Positions 2,002-12,323 of a stretch of 20,328 nt of DNA are shown one piece after another. Made by a program: the position numbers and the translations under genes. Every line of letters starts with the position of its first letter. The first letter of the stretch is position 1. The notes below the pieces were generated by a model. It saw only the letters and a program-made list of their open reading frames with translations, had not been told where the DNA came from and made no database searches. Source of the stretch: Deferribacteres bacterium JdFR-76 (GTDB taxonomy: Bacteria > Zhuqueibacterota > JdFR-76); contig MTOL01000065.1 in assembly GCA_002011685.1 (NCBI GenBank), positions 1,981 through 22,308 of the forward strand. The letters are read 5' to 3'.

Positions 2002-3375
2002 ATGGCGAAAGTCGATGAGGTTTATCTTTTCGACGAAAACCGGTTTTCGCTAAACCAACGTCTTGCACTATTGAGAAAACATGGAATTAGAGTACGCCTA
2101 TTCGACAATTGTGATCTGCTTTTCCAAATACTTATTAACCAAAAACCCGCTGTCATCCTTCTCGCGGATAGCAACATAGAGAAAATCTTGTCAACTTTAT
2201 CGAAAATAAAGGCGATCAACCCTGATCATAAATGTATTGTTATTGGTGAGACGACAAACGTTGAAGATGTGGTTATAATTTTGAAATCTGGAGCATTTGA
2301 TTATATATGTCCACCTTTTGGAGAAAAACGTCTGATTCGCGCAATCAAAGAGGCATCTTCTGAATTATGCGAAAATAAAAAAAATATGCAGGAAAGTCTC
2401 GATAACGGATTTTACGGTATCATTGGACAGACAAAATGCATGCTTGATATTCTTAAAAAGGCCAAAAAAATATCCCAGACAAATGTCAGTGTATTGATTC
2501 AGGGCGAGAGCGGCACCGGAAAAGAATTGCTGGCGCGGGCCATTCACGCCATGAGCAATAGATCAAGATACCCGTTTATTCCCGTTTCTTGTTCATCTTT
2601 GCCGCCGACACTTATAGAAAGTGAACTATTCGGATTCGAAGAGGGATCATTCACAAATGCCAAAAGATCAAAAAAAGGACTAATTGAGCTTGCACACAAT
2701 GGAACTCTATTCCTAGACGAAATTGGTGAAATAAACCTGGAAATGCAGCCAAAACTATTGCGATTTCTCCAGGATCATAAAATCCGTCGCATAGGAGCGT
2801 TAAAGGAAATAAGAATAGACACCAGAATTATTGCAGCCACTAACCGAAATCTCTATGAACTTGTGCAGCAGGGTCGTTTTCGTGAAGACCTTTATTATCG
2901 GATTAACGTCGTCAAATTCGACATACCTCCGCTAAGAGAGCGAAAAGAAGATATTCCTCTCCTCGTTAGCTACTTTATAAAAAAGTTCAATCGCCAGCAT
3001 GAATTCACCATTCATGGGATTGAGGATGAAGCCATAGAACTTTTGACCAATTACCATTGGCCGGGCAATGTTAGACAACTGGAAAATGTTATCAAAAAAG
3101 CGATCATTTTATCCGATTCTGAGGTCATCAAAGCCGATGACATTATTGATCATCTCGACAATGCTGTAAGAATCGACTTTAAAGATATGCTAAATGGGAG
3201 AAAAAGATCATTTAAAGAGCTGAAACAATCCTTTATTCAACAATTTGAACGGCAATATATCATTGAATTGCTTCAAAAACACAACGGTAACCTTTCACGG
3301 GCTGCCCGCGAAGCCGGAGTCAATCGGAGAACGATTTATCGAATGATCGAACAATACGGAATCCAATACAAATAG
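2002..3375 (+). CDS. Sigma-54-dependent transcriptional activator, PrsR/NtrC-like, with degenerate receiver domain
   Basis: 457 residues in three parts. The N-terminal 1-120 has a CheY-like fold with an acidic pair D11/E12 and a GAFDY segment at 97-101. The usual phosphorylation motif is altered to LLAD56, and the conserved Lys of the KPF motif is Pro104 (YICPPF). The central AAA+ domain, about 138-375, has Walker A GESGTGKE (168-175), Walker B GTLFLDEIGE (234-243, D239/E240), and the sigma-54 contact loop as GSFTNA (215-220) rather than GAFTGA. The C-terminal Fis-type helix-turn-helix spans about 424-452. It would hydrolyse ATP to open sigma-54 promoters. Exosortase loci often encode such a regulator (PrsR) with the kinase PrsK, but no kinase is visible here. 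The start at 2002 is supported by GGAGA 8 nt upstream. It is convergent with the next gene. Confidence 0.93.
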   Translation: MAKVDEVYLFDENRFSLNQRLALLRKHGIRVRLFDNCDLLFQILINQKPAVILLADSNIEKILSTLSKIKAINPDHKCIVIGETTNVEDVVIILKSGAFDYICPPFGEKRLIRAIKEASSELCENKKNMQESLDNGFYGIIGQTKCMLDILKKAKKISQTNVSVLIQGESGTGKELLARAIHAMSNRSRYPFIPVSCSSLPPTLIESELFGFEEGSFTNAKRSKKGLIELAHNGTLFLDEIGEINLEMQPKLLRFLQDHKIRRIGALKEIRIDTRIIAATNRNLYELVQQGRFREDLYYRINVVKFDIPPLRERKEDIPLLVSYFIKKFNRQHEFTIHGIEDEAIELLTNYHWPGNVRQLENVIKKAIILSDSEVIKADDIIDHLDNAVRIDFKDMLNGRKRSFKELKQSFIQQFERQYIIELLQKHNGNLSRAAREAGVNRRTIYRMIEQYGIQYK

Positions 3376-3429: not shown

Positions 3430-4323
3430 CTATCTTAGAAAGGTTACTTTCGTAGTTTTCGTTCCATATCGAGTTCTTAAAATAATCAAATAAGTCCCAT
3501 TTGCGAGCCAAGTGCCATCGGCTTTTCTTCCTTCCCATTTTATCTCATTAAACCCTGCTGGAAATTTTTGACTTTGGATACGTTGCACAAACCTACCGAG
3601 CACATTGTAGACCCAAACATCAACGATTTCATCTTCTGGTAAATAGAAAGCTATTCGGATGAACCCGGACGAGGGATTCGGATAAACAGAATAGAGTATA
3701 AATTCTCGCGGAATGTCCCAAACGGTATTTAGCGTGTCAGAGAAAGTAAAACTGCCATCGAGATTTACCAACTTAAGGCGATAATAATATTTTCCAGAAT
3801 TATTTGGATAATCAAAGTATGAATATTCCGTTTTCGTATTTTTTGTTCCTTGCGCCTTTATGAAAGCAATTTTTCTAAAACTCGTTGGAGAACTAAACGC
3901 CCGCTGTATTTCAAATCCATAAAAGTCTTTCTCGGTTAGTGTGGTCCATTTCAAAATAACTCTTCCGTTCTTTTTATCAATGTTGAAATTTAACAATTCT
4001 ACCGGCAAAACGCTGGGATGTATAAAAATGGGATATCCTATTGGATTTCTATAGCCCTGATGATTCCTCACAAAAACCCAGTGAAGGCCCGGTTTTAAAT
4101 CGCCCAGCACAAAACTAAAAAGAATCAACGTATCCGAGACCGATTCCACTTGTTGCACCACACGTACACTCGCTTTCTCATAATAGGGCGAATCACAAAT
4201 TTCTACAACAATATTCGGCGGTCCTGATTGGCCCGATACTGTGGAATGGAACATTCCGGAAGAGAAAATAAACCCTAAAAGCAAAAGGACAGCATAAGTA
4301 TTGTTCAAATATGTTCGCTTCAT
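3430..4323 (-). CDS. Secreted protein with T9SS type A/FlgD-like C-terminal sorting domain (297 aa)
   Basis: It begins with a signal peptide (hydrophobic 10-24, cleavage near SGQ at 30-32). Residues about 34-103 form a module ending KPGLHWVFVRN...IGYPIFI, related to the TIG-like module of the 912-aa protein. Residues 106-200 start LPVELLNF and include VILKWTTLTEKDFYGFEIQR, an FN3-like domain typical of Bacteroidota secreted proteins that precede a sorting domain. Residues about 208-297 carry YPNPSSG, VYNVLGRFV and NGTYLI, the hallmarks of T9SS type A/FlgD-like C-terminal domains, which direct outer-membrane export and surface attachment. No enzyme motif is seen, so it is probably structural or adhesive. 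The ATG follows GGAGG by 9 nt, inside an inverted repeat. A sigma-54-like box lies just upstream. Confidence 0.8.
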   Translation of the reverse strand: MKRTYLNNTYAVLLLLGFIFSSGMFHSTVSGQSGPPNIVVEICDSPYYEKASVRVVQQVESVSDTLILFSFVLGDLKPGLHWVFVRNHQGYRNPIGYPIFIHPSVLPVELLNFNIDKKNGRVILKWTTLTEKDFYGFEIQRAFSSPTSFRKIAFIKAQGTKNTKTEYSYFDYPNNSGKYYYRLKLVNLDGSFTFSDTLNTVWDIPREFILYSVYPNPSSGFIRIAFYLPEDEIVDVWVYNVLGRFVQRIQSQKFPAGFNEIKWEGRKADGTWLANGTYLIILRTRYGTKTTKVTFLR

Positions 4324-4326
4324 TTA

Positions 4327-4369
4327 GGCACACCTCCTCATTCAAGGAGGTTATATCAAGAGGTGTGCC
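4327..4369 (-). promoter_or_regulatory. Inverted repeat overlapping the ribosome binding site of the 297-aa protein gene
   Basis: Perfect 10-bp arms, GGCACACCTC at 4327-4336 and GAGGTGTGCC at 4360-4369 (plus-strand reading), flank a 23-nt spacer. The spacer holds a second pairing (CCTCC 4333-4337 with GGAGG 4346-4350). The start-proximal arm contains the Shine-Dalgarno GGAGG of the gene starting at 4323. In RNA either pairing would hide that site; in DNA it could be an operator. If transcription starts from the overlapping sigma-54 box, the distal arm would not be in the mRNA, which favours the DNA-site reading. Confidence 0.4.
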
Positions 4370-4371
4370 AA
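4355..4371 (-). promoter_or_regulatory. Candidate sigma-54 promoter for the 297-aa protein gene
   Basis: The minus strand reads TTGGCACACCTCTTGAT. It matches the sigma-54 consensus TGGCAC-N5-TTGC except that the -12 dinucleotide is GA instead of GC, with the invariant GG-N10 spacing. The predicted start is near 4344, giving a leader of about 20 nt. Confidence 0.5.
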
Positions 4372-4861
4372 TTCTTATATACTGATTTTGCTATATTTAG
4401 GTGAAGTGTTTGTTCCGACATAATTACGATTTTGAAGTTTAAAATACAAATTGGTAAGAATATTTTCCATTTTCTTGCATTGAACAAAACGACATTTTCT
4501 TTGTCATTTTTGCCAGAGGTTTTTTTGTTTGGCAAACTTATATAGCAACGTTGTCATCAAAATTCACATTCTATTTTGCCTTCCCAGAGCCTCACTTGGC
4601 TCTAATTTTCCAGTGAAACGTTGTAAGAAGTGCAAAACAGTCTCTTTGAGAACGCGCGAACAAAAAATGAAGCATTGCCTCGGTTACTATAAATCGATTT
4701 TGTCATTCAAAATATTTTCTATCTATCAGCAAAAAATCGTACACCGTTTCTTGCCCTGCAATTCATGCATGAAGCATAAAAAATACAAAACATGTTTTCA
4801 CGCTGCATCATTTTATTATCCATGAACCATTCTGAAGATCGATCAAAAAATTACATCCCTA
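4372..4861. other. Noncoding stretch between the 297-aa protein gene and the 197-aa PEP-CTERM gene
   Basis: About 490 bp without a supported gene; the plus-strand frame through 4529-4825 shows no family features. It contains an inverted repeat TTTGCCA-N14-TGGCAAA (4509-4536) about 150 bp upstream of the sigma-54 box (a plausible distance for an enhancer), a palindrome TTCATGCATGAA (4762-4773) and the second AAAACATGTTTT copy. No rho-independent terminator is evident after the 4862 stop codon. Confidence 0.45.
4787..4798. repeat. 12-bp palindrome AAAACATGTTTT, copy 2
   Basis: Identical to the copy at 1561-1572; both lie outside genes. Confidence 0.4.
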
Positions 4862-5455
4862 TCATGAAAATCTTTTGCTCAAAATAATAAAAGTCGTCAT
4901 AACAAACAAAGCACTTCCAAATAACAACACAGGAGAAGGTTCCGGAATCAAAGCTACCCGTCCCAACTTTGATCTATAGCCTTTTCCGTAATCGTTGCCA
5001 AAAATGTCAACGGGTTGAAAAGACACATAGATCCTTTCGGGCAAAAAGGAAACTTCATCCGGAAAAGGTCCACCATTTAGATCGAATTGCCAATAAAACG
5101 TAGCACTACCAACCACTTCTGCCCCCGGCACGTCTTTTCCGTAAATCCTCTTGCCGCGATGCGATGCGGGAACATAAAACGAAATACTGCCACTTGCATA
5201 AATTCTTTTTCTCCAACCTGGAGGAAGAAGAAAGGAATAATTGCTCCATTGCTCGGGAATCAGAGAATATGATATTGACCATCTTCTAATTGCATCGGGA
5301 GCAGGTCCCTCATTTCTTAAAACGAATTCATACTGGTACGTTTGTTGACTCAGATGATGAATCCTATAAAAGAGTGCCCAACTATTTATCGCATATGTGC
5401 TTTTGGCCATCAAAATGAACAGAAACAAGAGAACCACGTGTTTTAATTTTCTCAT
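4862..5455 (-). CDS. PEP-CTERM sorting domain protein (197 aa)
   Basis: The start at 5455 (MRKLKHVVLLFLFILMAKS) is preferred over an in-frame ATG four codons earlier, because the latter lies within the GGGGGG ribosome binding site. The signal peptide is followed by a beta-rich extracellular domain of about 145 residues that I do not recognise. The C-terminus, about 170-197, is the exosortase signal: IPEP, then a hydrophobic segment LLFGSALFVMTTFIIL and a short basic end SKRFS. Exosortase is expected to cleave near PEP and transfer the protein to the envelope or matrix. A strong terminator stands about 45 bp before this start and no promoter is obvious between them, so expression may depend on readthrough from the 198-aa PEP-CTERM gene. 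Confidence 0.85.
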   Translation of the reverse strand: MRKLKHVVLLFLFILMAKSTYAINSWALFYRIHHLSQQTYQYEFVLRNEGPAPDAIRRWSISYSLIPEQWSNYSFLLPPGWRKRIYASGSISFYVPASHRGKRIYGKDVPGAEVVGSATFYWQFDLNGGPFPDEVSFLPERIYVSFQPVDIFGNDYGKGYRSKLGRVALIPEPSPVLLFGSALFVMTTFIILSKRFS

Positions 5456-5500
5456 GATACCCCCCATTTTCTTTATTCTATGATTTTGATGTATCCCGAC

Positions 5501-5530
5501 AAAAAAAGAGCAGGTAAAAATTACCTGCTC
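5501..5530 (-). terminator. Rho-independent terminator after the 198-aa PEP-CTERM gene
   Basis: On the minus strand GAGCAGGTAA (5530-5521) pairs perfectly with TTACCTGCTC (5517-5508) around a 3-nt loop. Seven T residues follow (5507-5501). This is a textbook intrinsic terminator, about 65 bp past the stop codon at 5594. Confidence 0.9.
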
Positions 5531-5593
5531 CAGGATTTATGAATCTTTTGATAAATGTCCTCCCGGTCAAAAGTGCGTCATTTGCTCCCCACT

Positions 5594-6190
5594 CTACTTT
5601 TTGCGCCTTGCTACTCCACCAAATAAACCTAATCCCAGAAAACCGCTCCCCAAAAGCAGAATCGTAGAAGGTTCGGGTACAAGAGCAGTTACACCAGCCG
5701 TTGGAAAAATCTGTCGCGGCCCATAGGCATAATAGCTCAACGCCCAATTCTTGCGTCCTGAAAAAGCCGTTTGATTGTACATGGTTTCAAACAAATTCAC
5801 GGGAGCCTTTAGCTGGTAATACACATCGAAAACAAGAGATCTGGTCGTTGGAGGCCCATAAAAGATAATTCCTGCAGGATGGTGAGCTTCAGAAAGAAAG
5901 GAGCCTCTCCAATGCCATCCCGGTTTTCTTACAATACTAAGCCCCCAATCTGAAGGGAAATTTGAGAGATCAAAGATATTCGACCCGTAAAACTGAAGGA
6001 AAAAGATCGAATACGGATCAGAATTTCCAGCCCACCGTACATTGAACCTGGCCCATCCTTCCGTTGAAGAATACGGATTATAATTTGGATCAATATACGG
6101 ATTTACCGTAACATAAACCATCGTCTGTGCCATAAGCACATGTGGGAGAATAAAAGCGAAAAGCAACGCAAGAAAAATCCCCTTTTTCAT
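5594..6190 (-). CDS. PEP-CTERM sorting domain protein (198 aa)
   Basis: The start has a strong GGAGG site 8 nt upstream. Signal peptide MKKGIFLALLFAFILPHVLMA, then a Tyr/Trp/Asn-rich beta-type domain (about 23-168) of no family I recognise, then a canonical PEP-CTERM tail: VPEPST at 171-176, the glycine-rich hydrophobic segment ILLLGSGFLGLGLFGG, and the basic end ARRKK. It is the most typical exosortase substrate in the window. A sigma-54-like box lies about 45 bp before the start and a strong terminator follows, so it is probably a monocistronic, separately controlled gene. That pattern is known for PEP-CTERM genes under PrsK/PrsR control. A role as extracellular matrix or surface protein is inferred. 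Confidence 0.9.
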   Translation of the reverse strand: MKKGIFLALLFAFILPHVLMAQTMVYVTVNPYIDPNYNPYSSTEGWARFNVRWAGNSDPYSIFFLQFYGSNIFDLSNFPSDWGLSIVRKPGWHWRGSFLSEAHHPAGIIFYGPPTTRSLVFDVYYQLKAPVNLFETMYNQTAFSGRKNWALSYYAYGPRQIFPTAGVTALVPEPSTILLLGSGFLGLGLFGGVARRKK

Positions 6191-6234
6191 AATGGTGCCC
6201 TCCTTTTTTGCCAGCTCTTTTGGAAGAAAACTCT

Positions 6235-6251
6235 TTCAAATTTTATGCCAT
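6235..6251 (-). promoter_or_regulatory. Candidate sigma-54 promoter for the 198-aa PEP-CTERM gene
   Basis: The minus strand reads ATGGCATAAAATTTGAA, i.e. TGGCAT-N5-TTGA with GG-N10-GA spacing; the -12 C is A. The predicted start is near 6224, giving a leader of about 34 nt that includes the ribosome binding site. It shares the form TGGCA(C/T)A with the boxes before the two T9SS-type genes. Confidence 0.45.
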
Positions 6252-6304
6252 CACGAGGAATTATGTAAATTGTTAAAAATTAATCAATTACATTTCTCTT
6301 AATT

Positions 6305-6329
6305 TTGACAAGCCTTTCTATTCTGTCAA
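6305..6329. promoter_or_regulatory. Dyad TTGACA-N13-TGTCAA, possible activator (enhancer) site
   Basis: Perfect 6-bp arms (6305-6310 and 6324-6329) centred about 93 bp upstream of the predicted sigma-54 start, within the usual enhancer range. It overlaps the 9-mer CAAGCCTTT (6309-6317) that recurs at the same distance before the 912-aa gene. Binding by the plus-strand activator is inferred. Confidence 0.35.
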
Positions 6330-6370
6330 GTATCATAAACAGATCCTTAATTTTTGCATCAACCTATTGT

Positions 6371-6410
6371 AATTATGTATGTTACAACTGTAAGAATTGT
6401 TTACATAATT
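6371..6410. repeat. Nested inverted repeat across the 3' end of the 270-aa PEP-CTERM gene
   Basis: Outer arms AATTATGTA (6371-6379) and TACATAATT (6402-6410) are perfect; an inner TTAC/GTAA stem lies inside. It spans the stop codon at 6382-6384. On the minus strand no T-run follows, so it may protect or fold the mRNA end rather than terminate transcription. Confidence 0.4.
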
Positions 6411-7194
6411 TGCAAAAATGGACACAAAAAGACTTCCTTTTTTTGCGATTCTGCTCCGTATCGAAAGCGATAAATAGAATGATGATTGCACCCAAAAACA
6501 ATGCGATGAATGTATTCGGTTCGGGAATTACAGAAACCGTTACGAAGTCAAAAAGAAATTTCCGATGCGTCATTCCGCCATATATTTTGTCTTTGTCATA
6601 AAAGTTCGTGTTCAATCCGTAACCCGTTGGTGAATATATATGTAGGCCGACAGCTTGCACACTTTCATCCAACAACGCAAAAGAGCCTATTATTAACCGG
6701 TGCCATTGGTCACTTTTGTAAAGTAATACTTTGTCTTGAGAGTAAAAAAGAGAGGGCCCGTAAAATATGCGGCCGGATTTACCTCTTACATATAAATTCG
6801 CAAAAAACTCCTCATCCCCACTTAAAGAACGGAGAAAAAAGTAGCCACTGATTTCCCTTATCCGACCCGAATTTAGCCGATAAGGCACCTCAATGAAGAT
6901 TTCTCCTTCTGGCCCTAACCGCAGATCTGTAATTGATAGGGCTGCCCTATCACCAAATCCATCCCCGCAAATGTGGACAATGTTCTTGCTTGGAGACAGC
7001 AAATTCTTTTTTGCCACAATTTGCCAACCTGATAGGCCACTGGTAAAATCTGTTAATAAAAAACTATGTACCTTATCTGGCAAAATTACCCACCAGGCCA
7101 ATATCAAAAACAAAGTTACATAGGAAAACTTATGCCCTAAGAACAAATCAACAATGCCATATCCAAATCTACCCGGCTTTTTCTTTACATCCAT
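6382..7194 (-). CDS. PEP-CTERM sorting domain protein with C-terminal extension (270 aa)
   Basis: The ATG at 7194 is chosen because GGGAG lies about 7 nt before it; a TTG nine codons earlier has no such site. A long basic N-terminal region precedes one hydrophobic segment (about 26-40), an extended signal peptide. Residues about 45-215 are beta-rich and may be a jelly-roll or LamG-like fold (weak). The sorting signal starts IPEPNTF at 223, with hydrophobic segment IALFLGAIIILFIAF and basic cluster NRKKRK. Unusually, about 16 more residues follow, with three cysteines (SFCVHFCKLCKQ), whereas these signals normally end at the basic cluster. It starts 23 bp after the EpsI-like gene, so it is probably co-transcribed with the sorting enzymes and may be a dedicated cofactor or substrate. 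Confidence 0.82.
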   Translation of the reverse strand: MDVKKKPGRFGYGIVDLFLGHKFSYVTLFLILAWWVILPDKVHSFLLTDFTSGLSGWQIVAKKNLLSPSKNIVHICGDGFGDRAALSITDLRLGPEGEIFIEVPYRLNSGRIREISGYFFLRSLSGDEEFFANLYVRGKSGRIFYGPSLFYSQDKVLLYKSDQWHRLIIGSFALLDESVQAVGLHIYSPTGYGLNTNFYDKDKIYGGMTHRKFLFDFVTVSVIPEPNTFIALFLGAIIILFIAFDTEQNRKKRKSFCVHFCKLCKQFLQL

Positions 7195-7217
7195 AAACAA
7201 CTCCCTTTTCCAAAGTC

Positions 7218-7880
7218 TCAATTGCCATAGCCTAGGAACAAAGTCGTGTAATTTGCAAAAACCCCCAAAAATTCAACCAGGGTTTTCATTGCTTTGCCAG
7301 AATCCCCATCCTCCACAGGCACAGCTACGCGGACCAATGCACCTCCAGATCCTTGAAATCCCAATGCATTCTTAAACATTTGAACCTTAAATTTGTAAAT
7401 GCTATCGGTTCGCATCCCCTTTGTTTCATAATAATAGGCCACAATTTGCTCCGTCGTATTTCTTCTATAAAGAAGGAAAACAACCTGAAGAAAATCATAA
7501 TCGGTATTATATAGCTTCAGTTTTAGTTTCTGTTTTTTTACTACGCTATAGCCCTCTCCCCCCAGGCAGGCTTCCGGCGAATGAAATGGAGTGCGACTAT
7601 TAGGATAATAAATAATCGAAAATAGCACCCGCCGGCTCTTGTGCCTATAAATTCTGTGCAGTATATAGGGAGTTTCCAAGATCTCTGGAACACGGTTATC
7701 CAAAAATGCCTCTACTCCTTTCCATTCTTCAATCTCATACGGATAAACAGAAAAATCGATACTCTTTTCAGGAATTATTACACGTTCATAGTTCCAAACA
7801 GCCAGGGAAGACAGGCACATGATAACCAACAACGGGAAAGCATGAAAAGATTTCACGGGAAAAATCCTCATTATGGACAT
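7218..7880 (-). CDS. epsI: EpsI family exosortase-associated protein (DUF3485)
   Basis: 220 residues with an N-terminal membrane anchor (about 12-28) and a periplasmic domain. The family signature FHSPEACLGGEGY (99-111) is clear, with the Cys in the motif usually written H-S/T-P-x-x-C-x-P/G-G-x-G-W/Y. It is followed by a segment on a YYYETKG strand and an amphipathic C-terminus. EpsI-like proteins occur beside or fused to exosortase and are thought to help in sorting or in polysaccharide export; the biochemical role is not settled. No Shine-Dalgarno precedes the ATG at 7880 (the region reads CCTCCTCTTAAAACAT), so either the start is weak or translation is coupled to an upstream event. It lies 110 bp after the exosortase gene on the same strand. 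Confidence 0.85.
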   Translation of the reverse strand: MSIMRIFPVKSFHAFPLLVIMCLSSLAVWNYERVIIPEKSIDFSVYPYEIEEWKGVEAFLDNRVPEILETPYILHRIYRHKSRRVLFSIIYYPNSRTPFHSPEACLGGEGYSVVKKQKLKLKLYNTDYDFLQVVFLLYRRNTTEQIVAYYYETKGMRTDSIYKFKVQMFKNALGFQGSGGALVRVAVPVEDGDSGKAMKTLVEFLGVFANYTTLFLGYGN

Positions 7881-7990
7881 ATGTTTTAAGAGGAGGCAAA
7901 TCTGCAGAAAATTTCGATTTTTACCTCAAAATTGACCGAGAAGATAAGTGAATACGAATCCACTCGATTTGTATCCTGCCAATTCTGCGA

Positions 7991-8848
7991 TTACTTTGAC
8001 AACTCAACCACTTCGCTTGGCAATAGACGTTTAATAAGAAGGACAAACAACAAACCAAGGATAAAAACGGATATACCGCTTAAATCATGAATAGGAGTTC
8101 CTGGCGATGCATATGATGGAGATCCGAAATAAGAGACAAAAATAAGAAAGATAACCCGGAACATATTTGCAAACAAAGCTACTGGTATAACCAGAAGAAA
8201 CAGAAATACTCGTATCCACAGCTTTGCTTCATGGAGATATCCGATCAATGCCCCCAATGCCAAAAAAGAAATTAAAGATCGCAATCCACTGCACGGATCT
8301 CCAATAAGTAACATGCCATTGGGAAGGTGGATATAAAAACCGGATTTCAAAACAGGAATTCCCATGGCTGTTGCCAATTTACTGGATGAATTTACAACCA
8401 GAAATTTGACGGGAAGAGAAATTGCTTTAATCCATGGCAACGGCAGGGGAATCATAAACAAAAGATAGGTCAGTGGAAACAGAATTGATTGGACGTTTGA
8501 ATAAAAATAATAAGCTACTCCCCAAATAAATAAGATCAGAGACAAACCAGAGATAAAATGGATATCTGCCACTAACGCGAATATATGAATAACTTGGCTA
8601 AATAGAATAAGATAAAAACCAAATTTCCCATATCCCTTTTTGCGTGGCTTCACTTTCCCATAATTCTTATAAATCAAAAAAATAACTATTATGGGAATAA
8701 GAAAACCGTGCGAATAATAGGAGTTGGCGGCAGTATACCTCTCGAAAAGCCAGGTGAACGTCGAATGATAAATATATAAAAAAAGAAGAACTCCAAATAT
8801 GACCCAAAAAGGATTATGGTTTCTCAAAAAACCTGATTTAATGTTCAT
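7991..8848 (-). CDS. xrt: Exosortase (PEP-CTERM transpeptidase)
   Basis: 285-residue polytopic inner-membrane protein with about eight hydrophobic segments. The catalytic triad of the exosortase/archaeosortase family is intact: Cys186 in GDPCSGLRSL, Arg231 in ANMFRVI, and His254 in PIHDLSG. YYSHGFLIP (44-52), also typical of the family, is present. It recognises the PEP-CTERM tail (Pro-Glu-Pro, membrane helix, basic cluster), cleaves it and probably transfers the protein to an envelope acceptor, working with the EPS made by the neighbouring operon. The subtype cannot be settled by eye. The ATG at 8848 has a weak AAGG site 8 nt upstream. Three PEP-CTERM substrates are encoded downstream on the same strand. 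A dyad TTCTCT-CA-AGAGAA (8881-8894) lies 33 bp before the start. Confidence 0.93.
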   Translation of the reverse strand: MNIKSGFLRNHNPFWVIFGVLLFLYIYHSTFTWLFERYTAANSYYSHGFLIPIIVIFLIYKNYGKVKPRKKGYGKFGFYLILFSQVIHIFALVADIHFISGLSLILFIWGVAYYFYSNVQSILFPLTYLLFMIPLPLPWIKAISLPVKFLVVNSSSKLATAMGIPVLKSGFYIHLPNGMLLIGDPCSGLRSLISFLALGALIGYLHEAKLWIRVFLFLLVIPVALFANMFRVIFLIFVSYFGSPSYASPGTPIHDLSGISVFILGLLFVLLIKRLLPSEVVELSK

Positions 8849-9517
8849 TTTATTGCCTTAAGAATGATAAGAAAGCAAAATTCTCTCAAGAGAAGATAAA
8901 ATTCAAACATGGACAAGGAGTCAACATAATGCCGGAAAAAATTGTCTTAAAAACTTTTTTGAAATTGCTCCCATACTGCCCTGAAAACTGTTTTGCAAAA
9001 GATCAGATTTCCTATGTTTGTTAAAAGCAACCCATTAATAAATCCCTTTCAAACCAAAATCGAAAAGAAACTTGCAAATTTCTCGCAGATATCATTTAAA
9101 AAGACTATTTACCAGTCATCGCCGCGGTAATACATAGATGGTTGCAAAAGTAAGAATTTTTTGAACTTCTTTACCCACCGGAGGGACACTTCCCACTATG
9201 ACATAGATTCTATGCCGATAAAACAAAATAATTTCCAAGATCCATCTTGGAAGGCTAAATCTATAGAGATAAAATCGCCGTTACATTCATTCCCCCAAAA
9301 AATTTTTGATGGCGAATTAGCTTATCGTTGGAGTATTGGCAATGATCGTATAAACCACAAAAGCCTTTTCTGCTTGAAAAATCACGGAAGAAGTTGACAG
9401 GATGGATAGCAATAAGGCACCCATTTTTCTCAAACGTTGATCAACTTTAACCTTTTGTTTGTTCTATCTGTTTCTTCCAAATAATTCAACATATGATCCA
9501 ATCGAATCTAACGATCT
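8849..9517. other. Noncoding stretch upstream of the exosortase gene
   Basis: About 670 bp with no supported gene; the plus-strand frame 9161-9397 has no recognisable features. It holds two adjacent dyads (9202-9252), the hexamer dyad near the exosortase start, and a weak GG-N10-GC pair at 8966-8981 (minus-strand GGGCAGTATGGGAGCA) about 120 bp before the exosortase ATG. That pair matches sigma-54 poorly outside the GG and GC. No strong terminator was seen after the 912-aa gene. Confidence 0.45.
9202..9252. repeat. Two adjacent palindromic dyads upstream of the exosortase gene
   Basis: CATAGA-T-TCTATG at 9202-9214 and TTCCAAGAT-CC-ATCTTGGAA at 9233-9252, both with perfect arms (6 and 9 bp). 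Short centres suggest protein-binding sites rather than RNA hairpins. They lie about 350-400 bp upstream of the exosortase start. Confidence 0.4.
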
Positions 9518-12256
9518 TCACTGCAAGAGAACCATCTTGACCGTTTTTCTATAAACGACTTTCCCATTTCCAGGTATTTCTTCCTCTCCAATTATGGCCG
9601 CCATTTCCAAAAAATAAATTCCATTGCCCATTTTTTCTTTTGAAATCGTTTGCGGATTAAAAGAAAAGACATAAGAACCAGGCGTTACAGATTGTCTCAA
9701 AAATTCGCCTATTTTTCTGCCCAAAATGTCATAAAAACGAAAAACAACAGACGAAGATTGGCGAACCGAAAAAATTACGTTCCCCTCCCCGGTTAATGGA
9801 TTTGGGAAGACTTGGGATAAACCAAATTCTTTTGGATAAGTCTTTTTGTAAAAGTCAAAATCGCCGGCCGTCTGGATTTGTATAAAAACGGGATACCCCA
9901 CAATATTCCTTTTTCCCCATTCATTGCTCACAAATATATAATAAATACCAGGCTTTTCAATTGAAGCATAATGCTCAAAATTAAATATTAACAAGCTGTC
10001 ATATGAAGCTACCAGCTGTTGGCTGCTCAGGAATTTCGCACGAAGATCATACCAATCATCACCGATCATCACACTTGTTTTTGTAGTATCCTTGCCAAGA
10101 TTTTTCCCTTCGATTTTTATATTCTTTTGCCCCGGTCCAATTGTATCTGGTAATACCCTGTAGATTTCAGGGATCCTCTCCCCACCTGTCGATGTCACGG
10201 CTACATTTGAGATTGAAGATAGATTGCCGGCATCATCATATGCTTTTATAGCAAAAAAGTACACTTTTCCGCTGTCCAAACCCGTTACAAAAAGACTATC
10301 TTTGTCTCCAGGCATTTGGGGATCGTGAGGAATTGAAAAAATGGGACACACGGACCATGAATATTCATCGATCGGAAGGTCAGAAAATACAATGTTATAT
10401 CCAGAAACTTTCCCTCCGCTTGAACCATCATCACCAGGAGACGTCCAGCATAACAATACAGCATTGGATGAAATCTTTCGGGCCATTAAATCCGAAACTG
10501 CGGCTGGCGATATAAAATCGGATTTTTCGTAATTTTCGGGAACATATTCATACGGCCCGATATCCAACGCTCCCCCTCCATCGATGCCAGCTTTAAAGAA
10601 CCTACATTTATAATCCATATCATACATTGAACCAAATCCCATATTGCCATTGTCGATCGCAAGACTCCCAGAGGACAGACGAAAATTTAAATTTGAAATA
10701 TCCTTGAAACCAGGGTCTCCAACAAACGGTAGAGAATCGTCAGTTCCGACCCCAAAATAAACAGGAGGTTTTTCATAAAGATTATTACTTGCGACAAAAT
10801 GAGATGGTATATATTTGGGATACTTCCCATTCTTTACATGTTCCGATGCTATGTTCCAAAAGATATTGTTCACGATATTCACATGATCAAAATGTTTATT
10901 TTCAAAGATGCCAAACAGTACACCATATTTAAAACCCGCGATTAAGTTGTTATAGATGTACAAGTTTTTAATCTCCCCTCCCCAAACATATACGCCCGAC
11001 ATAGTGGCACTTCCATCCGAATAGATAACATTATTTCTTATAGTTATGTTTTCTACTCCTTCTTGGGGTAGGCCAGTTTCCGGTTCAACAAAACCGATCA
11101 GAATTGCTGCCCTAAATCCTTTTCCCCGATCACTAGCATCAAACCAGTTTCCTTCCAAAAGAAGATTTTTCATTCCTCGCCCCACATCGTTGCAGCTCGG
11201 CCTATCTTCATCATATATATGAACATTGTACATGGAGCCCCCTTTTATGTAATTATCTTTCAATGCAAGGTTCTTACCGCTTGCCAAATAAAGGGCATAC
11301 GAAGTTTCGTCCACCGGCATTATGTCAATAAAATTCGCTGCGATAAGAAAATTATCACCAAATGTCTGAATAGCATGGTCGAAATATCCCGAAAATTCAC
11401 AGCCTACCAAAGTGAGTCCAACTGCATGATCAGAATAACTTTCACAGAAAGAAGGTTGCCCGCCGAATTGTATGATGGTATATTCCGAATCAGAAACAAA
11501 TTTTAAATTGGCCAATGTCCAGTAATCGGCCCATATCCTTATCGAGGCATTTTTAATCATGGCCAACTCGCCGGGAAAAGAGGTCAGTGTAATTCTCAAA
11601 TCACGACTTCCACTGGGTTTCACTTGATCATATCTACTTCCAATGTAAGCATATCTGCGGCTTCCGTCCTTGTGTATGTAGGTATATTCTCCTTCCCGGA
11701 GATACAAGAAATCTCCAGGACCGACCTTATATGCTGCAGCTCCGATGGTTTTCCAAGGTCCATGGTTATTACCCTGAAAAGAGGCAAATTTTCCATCGTT
11801 TGCATCATCGCCATATGGAGATATAAAATAAATTCTTCCCCTATTATCGACCCTAAAAGGGATCTTGTTGGAAACCTTGCCATTTACCGTGACCGAAATG
11901 TACGTATCGCCTTCCGGTATTGAACTATTCAGCCAAAAAATTATACGTTGCATCCCCTTTGCTGTTCTTGGGTTTGTCGTAGTTCCCCATTCTGCATAAT
12001 CAGCATCAGAAGACAATATAACATCCCCAACTTGTACATAACTGTCATTCCGAGATATACCAAAGCCATACCCCCAAATGATTATTGCAGCTCCTCTATC
12101 CGGCGATCCTTCCCAACCGTGATTTGGACCTGAATAGCTACTTAAATAGCAAATTATAGGGCGATCAGCGGCAAAAACCGGAAGAAAGCCGAAAGGTAAA
12201 ATAACTACCGAAAGGATAAACGAAAACAAAACGTATGATAAATGCGGCCTTTTCAT
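9518..12256 (-). CDS. Large secreted beta-helix protein with TIG, FN3 and T9SS type A C-terminal domains (912 aa)
   Basis: The signal peptide occupies 1-30 (ends PVFAA). A TIG/IPT-like domain follows (about 33-138). The right-handed parallel beta-helix (about 141-590) begins IYFISPYGDDANDG...PWKTIGAAA...PGDFLYLREGEY, the entry motif of pectate-lyase-like and choice-of-anchor helix proteins, and shows repeated N-N-x-I/L rungs. An FN3 domain (about 600-690) contains SGYNIVFSD and GLDSGKVYFFAIKAYDDAGN. A second TIG-like module (about 695-795) ends PGIYYIFVSNEWGKRNIVGYPVFI. The C-terminal sorting domain (about 810-912) has FPNPLTGEG, FYDILGRKIG and NGIYFLEM. It is probably exported and surface-bound, binding or cleaving polysaccharide; catalytic residues cannot be assigned by eye. 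AAGGG lies 8 nt before the ATG. A good sigma-54 box is about 50 bp upstream, between this gene and the EPS operon. Confidence 0.85.
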   Translation of the reverse strand: MKRPHLSYVLFSFILSVVILPFGFLPVFAADRPIICYLSSYSGPNHGWEGSPDRGAAIIIWGYGFGISRNDSYVQVGDVILSSDADYAEWGTTTNPRTAKGMQRIIFWLNSSIPEGDTYISVTVNGKVSNKIPFRVDNRGRIYFISPYGDDANDGKFASFQGNNHGPWKTIGAAAYKVGPGDFLYLREGEYTYIHKDGSRRYAYIGSRYDQVKPSGSRDLRITLTSFPGELAMIKNASIRIWADYWTLANLKFVSDSEYTIIQFGGQPSFCESYSDHAVGLTLVGCEFSGYFDHAIQTFGDNFLIAANFIDIMPVDETSYALYLASGKNLALKDNYIKGGSMYNVHIYDEDRPSCNDVGRGMKNLLLEGNWFDASDRGKGFRAAILIGFVEPETGLPQEGVENITIRNNVIYSDGSATMSGVYVWGGEIKNLYIYNNLIAGFKYGVLFGIFENKHFDHVNIVNNIFWNIASEHVKNGKYPKYIPSHFVASNNLYEKPPVYFGVGTDDSLPFVGDPGFKDISNLNFRLSSGSLAIDNGNMGFGSMYDMDYKCRFFKAGIDGGGALDIGPYEYVPENYEKSDFISPAAVSDLMARKISSNAVLLCWTSPGDDGSSGGKVSGYNIVFSDLPIDEYSWSVCPIFSIPHDPQMPGDKDSLFVTGLDSGKVYFFAIKAYDDAGNLSSISNVAVTSTGGERIPEIYRVLPDTIGPGQKNIKIEGKNLGKDTTKTSVMIGDDWYDLRAKFLSSQQLVASYDSLLIFNFEHYASIEKPGIYYIFVSNEWGKRNIVGYPVFIQIQTAGDFDFYKKTYPKEFGLSQVFPNPLTGEGNVIFSVRQSSSVVFRFYDILGRKIGEFLRQSVTPGSYVFSFNPQTISKEKMGNGIYFLEMAAIIGEEEIPGNGKVVYRKTVKMVLLQ

Positions 12257-12306
12257 TTTGAATACCCTTTGAATACTTTATCAATTATAAAATCAAAAGG
12301 GACATT

Positions 12307-12323
12307 TGCAATTTGTATGCCAA
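12307..12323 (-). promoter_or_regulatory. Candidate sigma-54 promoter for the 912-aa protein gene
   Basis: The minus strand reads TTGGCATACAAATTGCA, a near-consensus -24/-12 promoter (TTGGCAT-N5-TTGCA) with exact GG-N10-GC spacing. The predicted start is near 12296, about 40 nt before the ATG. It is the best match of the set. Confidence 0.7.

Follow-up and report, generated by a model that had tools for sequence, protein, structure and literature searches.

Introduction

How does an uncultured bacterium time the production of surface proteins that carry sorting tails of two different types, if their genes lie together in one locus? This question is raised by a stretch of 20,328 nucleotides, called the window in the following, from Deferribacteres bacterium JdFR-76, an uncultured member of the phylum KSB1; it comprises bases 1981-22308 of contig C2 of a draft genome of 3.10 Mb (557 contigs, 82% complete). 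The window holds, in one locus, an exosortase, EpsI, three PEP-CTERM-type genes, two genes with a tail of the type IX secretion system (T9SS) and a sigma-54 activator, and polysaccharide-type genes adjoin. The initial annotation of this DNA placed sigma-54-like boxes before three of the surface-protein genes, a PEP-CTERM gene encoding 198 amino acids (aa) and two T9SS-type genes encoding 297 and 912 aa, and it put both cargo types under the same control. Our best explanation, which in its entirety we regard as fairly likely, is that this is an exosortase/exopolysaccharide locus with surface-protein genes predicted to be read by sigma-54 RNA polymerase, and the 198-aa PEP-CTERM gene looks like an outlying addition to the known PrsR/sigma-54 regulon. 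That regulon was described by Haft et al. (2006), whose accessible text reports PEP-CTERM sigma-54 motifs only in Proteobacteria among the species covered (PMC1569441).

Three Sigma-54-Type Boxes Precede Surface-Protein Genes

The three 17-mers were found on the minus strand exactly where the initial annotation had placed them, with the spacings GG-N10-GC, -GA and -GA. They are the -24/-12 box of the 912-aa gene, TTGGCATACAAATTGCA (12307..12323, 16.8 bits, 50 nt before the ATG), the sigma-54-like box of the 297-aa gene, TTGGCACACCTCTTGAT (4355..4371, 13.5 bits, 31 nt before the ATG), and the -24/-12 box of the 198-aa PEP-CTERM gene, ATGGCATAAAATTTGAA (6235..6251, 13.0 bits, 44 nt before the ATG). 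The annotated distance of 35-55 bp before the start codon holds for the boxes at 50 and 44 nt, while the 31 nt of the 297-aa gene fall just outside of it. All three boxes show the sigma-54 promoter pattern, i.e., the GG-N10-GC pair, consensus flanks and a promoter distance, with GA at -12 in two of the three, and that of the 912-aa gene matches the consensus in full. The pattern TGGCAYN5TTGMW, which was fitted to the three boxes, has no further exact match in the window, and with at most one mismatch it occurs nine times compared to 3.6 expected from shuffles. In a sigma-54 matrix, the values of which are approximations of the published consensus, the boxes rank first, second and fourth in the window, the third rank (13.4 bits) lying inside the 297-aa gene, and none of 500 dinucleotide shuffles of each box region reached the observed score for any of the three. 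The boxes thus exist as described and beat chance expectation. The 912-aa gene is very probably preceded by a sigma-54 promoter box, both T9SS genes probably have sigma-54 promoters, and the same sigma factor probably serves both cargo types.

Sigma-54 Boxes Across the Genome

The genome encodes rpoN, the absence of which the initial annotation had named as an argument against its own proposal, and it contains 25 activator-domain matches (22 at 42 bits or more, three weak). The suggested genome-wide scan brought out an excess of sigma-54-type boxes: the strict box occurs 37 times compared to four times for the reversed pattern used as control, and 20 of the 37 are intergenic by gene models and start codons that were called by a simple custom script rather than a gene finder (one of these 20 is intergenic in only one of two overlapping loci). 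The excess depends on the spacing. In a 552-kb sample of 72 sequences, which includes the window and of which 10.8% is intergenic DNA, the N5 spacing yielded nine matches, seven of them intergenic (three being the window's own), while the other spacings from N1 to N10 gave 0-2 intergenic matches each; with the looser TGGCAN pattern there were nine matches for N5 and 0-5 for the other spacings.

The -12 element among 20 boxes is GC in ten, GA in seven and GT in three cases. Glutamine synthetase is a textbook sigma-54 target, and a gene on contig C108, assigned by eye as glutamine synthetase and located near another activator, carries the box TGGCATATTTCTTGAA 64 nt before its start, with GA at -12; judged by eye, it serves as an internal positive control. 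The GA at -12 had been taken either to weaken the boxes or to mark a local variant, and it is the second option that fits, as a recurrent variant found in 7 of the 20 boxes and, as TTGAA, at the glutamine synthetase-like gene. Strong boxes were also seen before genes that by eye encode response regulators, a cytochrome c-like and a PilZ-like protein on contigs C148, C406, C7, and C5 (L023, L138, L007, L006).

Boxes at PEP-CTERM Genes of KSB1 and Other Phyla

The enrichment before PEP-CTERM genes that the initial annotation proposed to check was found in the own genome and in six KSB1 relatives. The own genome contains five PEP-CTERM matches over the cut-off, three in the window, one on contig C51 and one on contig C227. 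Boxes lie 43-48 nt before the start in three of these five genes, or in three of the four that have a 60-nt upstream gap. No box of their own was found before the two further PEP-CTERM-type genes of the window, which encode 279 aa (best upstream score 2.1) and 201 aa (1.3). In the six relatives, 15 of the 20 PEP-CTERM genes tested have a box of at least 9 bits at 20-115 nt, with 0.48 expected, and at 13 bits or more there are still eight genes compared to 0.06 expected; two of the five boxless genes stand directly after epsI. The 20 genes are the 23 matches minus two permease-like proteins (L167, L170) and one 49-aa fragment (L175), and the relatives are not all independent, as G032 and G054 belong to the same genus and G067 and G069 to the same family. 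Moreover, at 80 exosortase loci from many phyla, the best 80 of 399 relatives in an alignment scan, a box of at least 10 bits precedes 9 of 32 PEP-CTERM genes (found by a regular expression, with an 80-nt gap) but only 21 of 416 other genes; many PEP-CTERM genes in this set are without box.

The box of the 198-aa gene fits this phylum-wide PEP-CTERM pattern. That all three boxes of the window would be chance matches in AT-rich DNA is a thought invited by a short motif that was picked by eye; however, the enrichment is genome-wide, spacing-specific and phylum-wide, and for the PEP-CTERM box the recurrence in relatives contradicts it, so that we consider pure chance exceedingly improbable.

A 17-nt Upstream Site

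In the regulon of Haft et al. the PEP-CTERM gene stands behind an upstream non-coding region with a -24/-12 box and a separate 17-nt motif, and the 198-aa gene resembles this arrangement (PMC1569441). A putative upstream activating site of PrsR type (6389..6405; minus strand TGTAAACAATTCTTACA; 15.4 bits) lies 138 nt upstream of its box and extends into the 3' end of the 279-aa gene. When k-mers were tested in 17 upstream regions of PEP-CTERM genes, the 7-mer GTCGGAA came out with a z of 8.9 compared to 7.65 for the null, while the same test with 6-mers was not passed (best z 5.90, null 5.98); the same 7-mer set occurs in 4 of 108 background regions of the own genome and in none of 36 T9SS regions of relatives. 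The contexts of GTCGGAA are 17-mers of the form TGT-N11-ACA. A palindromic 17-nt matrix was trained on 15 PEP-CTERM genes of relatives alone, with the own sequences kept out, and it reached a mean best score of 13.7, whereas 15 trainings from the same seed on shuffled sequences stayed at 7.9-10.3. A site of at least 11 bits is present at 12 of the 15 genes used for training, at a distance of 75-174 nt to the box. None of the 108 own background regions scores as high as the 15.4 bits of the 198-aa gene. In about 0.62 Mb of own sequence there are 13 sites of at least 13 bits, nine of which are outside the window and, by the script calls, inside genes. A first guess of the site, TGTAAA-N5-TTTACA, was dropped; it was in excess at the level of the set (162 compared to 146.8, standard deviation 3.2, 0 of 300 shuffles) with few clear sites, and the trained matrix replaced it. 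By eye, a TTGACA/TGTCAA dyad was also noticed upstream of PEP-CTERM genes in the own genome.

The site is not confined to KSB1. In other phyla a site of at least 11 bits occurs at 4 of 11 PEP-CTERM genes with a box of at least 9.5 bits (a twelfth row, a KSB1 training locus, was left out), and box and 17-nt site are found together at PEP-CTERM genes of one Thermodesulfovibrionia and two Omnitrophota loci (L269, L222, L234). The last letters of the two Thermodesulfovibrionia sites (11.0 and 8.6 bits) are AATTTACA, in agreement with the 17-nt motif 1, for which the accessible text of Haft et al. gives the 3' end TTTACA (PMC1569441). The 17-mers found here end in ACA, and their identity with the published motif rests on the length and the 3' end as given in that text, the logo being unseen (PMC1569441).

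Before the T9SS genes of the window, no significant 17-nt site was found, the best scores being 6.2 bits (p 0.13) for the 297-aa gene and -1.5 (p 0.83) for the 912-aa gene. GTCGGAA does occur 50 nt before the box of the 297-aa gene; it was not counted as a site because the 17-nt partner is absent. The proposal that T9SS cargo shares the control of PEP-CTERM cargo is not borne out by this result, which speaks against shared control.

PrsR Is Encoded Elsewhere in the Genome

The activator encoded in the window (2002..3375, plus strand) has an AAA+ domain, a Fis-type helix-turn-helix and a degenerate receiver. The initial annotation, which called it NtrC/PrsR-like, was right in seeing a sigma-54 activator, but its identity with PrsR was rejected, since it reaches 379.6 bits with TIGR02915 compared to a cut-off of 502.6. 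PrsR is instead found on contig C12, where a protein scores 539.8 and adjoins a PrsK-like kinase; the pair lies in a same-strand run of genes with export-type genes (L332, 1372-12146), and an 18.1-bit box precedes the 136-aa gene that heads this run. Similarly, PrsR over the cut-off (503.8-570.4) is present in all four relatives scanned, each time next to a PrsK-like kinase and with export-like genes by eye, and PrsK exceeds its cut-off in two relatives. In the own genome, one tetratricopeptide repeat (TPR) protein beside the PrsK-like kinase reaches only 43.2 bits with TIGR02917 (PrsT TPR lipoprotein), with a cut-off of 312.2, in a comparison limited to this protein, as a genome-wide search was not made. 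The pairing of an above-cut-off PrsR with a PrsK-like kinase, close to genes of exopolysaccharide type, is a further likeness to the regulon of Haft et al. (PMC1569441).

In the receiver of the window activator, Pro and Gly stand where most of ten aligned activators have a conserved Lys and Thr, and its contact loop reads GSFTNA while those of the ten others read GAFTGA, GSFTGA, GAYTGA, or GAFTDA. With the roles that we presume for these receiver and sigma-54 contact residues, the receiver looks unable to take phosphate in the usual way.

We propose that the 198-aa PEP-CTERM gene is under a two-part control as in Proteobacteria, composed of the -24/-12 box and the 17-nt upstream palindrome. 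The palindrome would most likely be bound by the PrsR encoded on C12 together with the PrsK-like kinase and the exopolysaccharide-export-like genes; upon a signal from PrsK, site-bound PrsR would open the sigma-54 promoter at the expense of ATP, and PEP-CTERM synthesis would be timed with exopolysaccharide export. The T9SS-type genes of 912 and 297 aa would probably be fired by another activator, because they have boxes but no clear PrsR-type site, and the orphan activator of the window is the nearest candidate. The sequence itself shows the boxes, the upstream site, rpoN, PrsR and SprA; binding, activation, the signal and the pairing of activators with genes are inferred from it, and the explanation as a whole we judge to be likely on balance.

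Several observations weigh against it. Regarding the site, 3 of the 15 training genes score below 8 bits, and the seed was picked after the k-mer contexts had been viewed. The PEP-CTERM gene on C51 has a site of 11.3 bits, but its own region is the highest-scoring member of the 108-region background, and the one on C227 is not significant with 4.9 bits (p 0.17). The next background regions score 11.0 bits, and one of them belongs to an Hsp20 gene on C105 (L117, 41-490) with a 16.6-bit box, so that scores around 11 bits also arise outside the PEP-CTERM genes. The 75-174 nt between box and sites of at least 11 bits are longer spacers than the 32-92 nt given in the accessible text of the proteobacterial report (PMC1569441). 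On C12, the kinase adjacent to PrsR stays below its cut-off (TIGR02916, 243.6 compared to 300), as does an export-type gene (TIGR03027, 105.4 compared to 180). Finally, the box of the 297-aa gene coincides with the 5' arm of a 12-bp hairpin.

The T9SS Genes and Sigma-54

The hairpin is formed by an inverted repeat (4327..4369) whose 3' arm holds the Shine-Dalgarno sequence of the 297-aa gene; it has a folding energy of -23.3 kcal/mol (z -5.3), and in a custom test such a hairpin arm was present at 3 of 396 genes. RNA from the presumed sigma-54 start at about 4344 folds no better than shuffles. This depends on the start, as RNA from 4358 still forms a hairpin of -12.0 kcal/mol and RNA from 4346 does not. 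Two meanings are possible: the overlap may be accidental and weaken the 297-aa box, or it may point to a promoter-dependent translation. The latter belongs to a wider and speculative reading, to which we give a low probability, namely that sigma-54 times both routes, exosortase cargo via PrsR and T9SS cargo via a second, phosphorylation-independent activator, and that the 297-aa protein would be translated only from RNA of the sigma-54 start, because read-through RNA would fold the ribosome-binding site into the hairpin of which the box is the 5' arm.

A sigma-54 regulon of the T9SS genes as a class was rejected, and the enrichment before them that was to be checked alongside that of PEP-CTERM genes did not appear. 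In the own genome 4 of 32 T9SS genes tested have a box of at least 10 bits (p 0.12; at 12 bits p 0.027), and outside the window the count is 2 of 30 (p 0.49), with control genes boxed at 6 of 97 on the same contigs and at 2 of 64 on systematically picked contigs; in relatives it is 1 of 36. The own set comprises 32 of 60 T9SS genes located, of 64 over the cut-off, the others being cut at contig ends or having no 60-nt upstream gap, while the relatives' set consists of 40 genes chosen manually among the best-scoring of 675 matches with the upstream DNA unseen, of which three ran off contigs and one was frameless.

This missing excess, the hairpin and the lack of a significant PrsR-type site at either T9SS gene would all be accounted for if only the PEP-CTERM box worked and the boxes of the T9SS genes were look-alikes, that of the 297-aa gene being an arm of an RNA hairpin or of a DNA operator. 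We regard this as a serious but rather doubtful alternative: the 912-aa box agrees with the consensus throughout, neither score is reached by shuffles, and with the window counted in, 4 of 32 T9SS genes are boxed (p 0.12 at 10 bits, 0.027 at 12). Moreover, boxes of at least 13 bits occur at only 2 of 161 control genes, which for three among an assumed eight promoters gives P 1e-4 (4e-3 at an upper rate of 4.4%). There is also a precedent, as mutagenesis was used to test a sigma-54 promoter at the remFG-sprCDBF gliding operon of Flavobacterium psychrophilum (PMC9723704). Like the T9SS genes here, this operon has a -24/-12 promoter before genes for the T9SS-secreted surface adhesin SprB; unlike here, an exosortase/PEP-CTERM partner is not described in the accessible text (PMC9723704). 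The initial annotation saw a new extension in placing T9SS-type cargo under the same control as PEP-CTERM genes; sigma-54 before T9SS cargo is, however, not new in itself, because the promoter of the SprB operon is published (PMC9723704).

The two cargo types are found next to each other elsewhere too. On C51 (L091, 3144-6518) a 16.8-bit box precedes a PEP-CTERM gene (264 aa), and a T9SS gene (799 aa) begins 180 nt after it. The ectodomains of the two proteins have repeats in common (38% over 210 aa, E 3e-27), so that surface domains of related type end in sorting tails of different types. Two relatives have exosortase, epsI, a PEP-CTERM gene and a T9SS-like gene one after another, and in a third one a T9SS-tail gene with its start cut by the contig end precedes the exosortase (L177, L179, L178); the T9SS-like gene at the end of the row has no TIGR04183 match at E 0.01, and its tail matches that of C51 by BLAST. 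These rows, the one on C51 with another sigma-54 activator, together with the proximity of the window activator to its neighbours, suit the model of the initial annotation, in which the three promoters form one local regulon under the activator at 2002-3375, with PEP-CTERM and T9SS cargo switched together. Yet this activator falls short of PrsR and its best match in the six relatives is 49% over 340 residues, the palindrome precedes the PEP-CTERM gene only, and a 9-mer common to the two T9SS upstream regions, GAACAAACA, is about at chance level by our own estimate; the single local regulon therefore appears improbable, and separate activators for PEP-CTERM and T9SS genes remain our preferred reading.

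Gene Content of the Locus

The exosortase of the EpsH family (7991..8848, minus strand) matches PF09721 with 172.6 and TIGR02602 with 143.7 bits, and it was matched in 9 of 119 genomes including the own one, six of the nine being other genomes of the same phylum; a single-protein exosortase scan of named genomes gave no match. The exosortase is accompanied on the same strand by the EpsI-type exosortase-associated protein (7218..7880; DUF3485, TIGR02914 84.7 bits). The gene types named in the initial annotation held up: the 198-aa protein (5594..6190, minus) is a PEP-CTERM protein by TIGR02595 (17.6 bits, cut-off 16), and the 297-aa protein (3430..4323, minus) has a T9SS type A tail by TIGR04183 (38.5 bits, cut-off 23). 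The 912-aa surface protein (9518..12256, minus) has a weak beta-helix match, fn3 and TIG domains and a T9SS type A tail, which scores 22.8 with TIGR04183 in the scan of window proteins (cut-off 23) and 25.5 in the genome search. Weak PEP-CTERM tails are found in the 279-aa protein encoded directly after epsI (6382..7221, minus; 17.2 bits in the genome search, 12.9 and below the cut-off in the window-protein scan) and in the 201-aa protein encoded 126 nt after the 198-aa gene (4862..5467, minus; 18.5 and 14.6 bits, the latter again below the cut-off). Among the ten homologs listed for the 912-aa protein the first is the protein itself; another protein, P0003 (701 aa), has an N-terminal part in common with it (41% over 271 aa), and its C-terminus is by eye dockerin-like, with no T9SS tail seen.

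SprA is encoded on contig C289 (TIGR04189, 511.8 bits joined, cut-off 200), while PF14349 was uninformative for it. With SprA present the T9SS reading is sound; it rests on SprA, other T9SS parts not having been searched. Both sorting routes are represented in the genome, one by the exosortase and the other by SprA. The window has no Rfam match at gathering scores.

Relation to Known Systems and Perspective

Sigma-54 has been described as a controller of the bacterial exterior in the accessible text of PMC3162934, and experimental cases of PEP-CTERM genes exist in other phyla: pepA of Aquincola depends on RpoN1 (PMC9850573), and the regulator DVUA0057 of Desulfovibrio vulgaris enriched five predicted PEP-CTERM targets in vitro (PMC3333781). 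In the accessible text of both reports T9SS cargo is not described (PMC9850573, PMC3333781). Unlike in the regulon as presented in the accessible text of Haft et al., the host here belongs to KSB1, GA is frequent at -12, and the own PrsK-like kinase does not reach the PrsK cut-off (PMC1569441). Our searches of open-access literature gave no paper on PrsR-type control in KSB1, on PEP-CTERM in connection with KSB1, or on KSB1 together with type IX secretion or exosortase.

Box, upstream site and PrsR occur together in KSB1, and box and site at individual loci of Omnitrophota and Thermodesulfovibrionia. This suggests that the circuit is older or more mobile than a restriction to Proteobacteria would imply. 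With it, the timing of PEP-CTERM surface proteins in uncultured bacteria becomes accessible to computation, and the T9SS-tail genes in the same loci make it a testable question whether the two sorting routes are fed in step.

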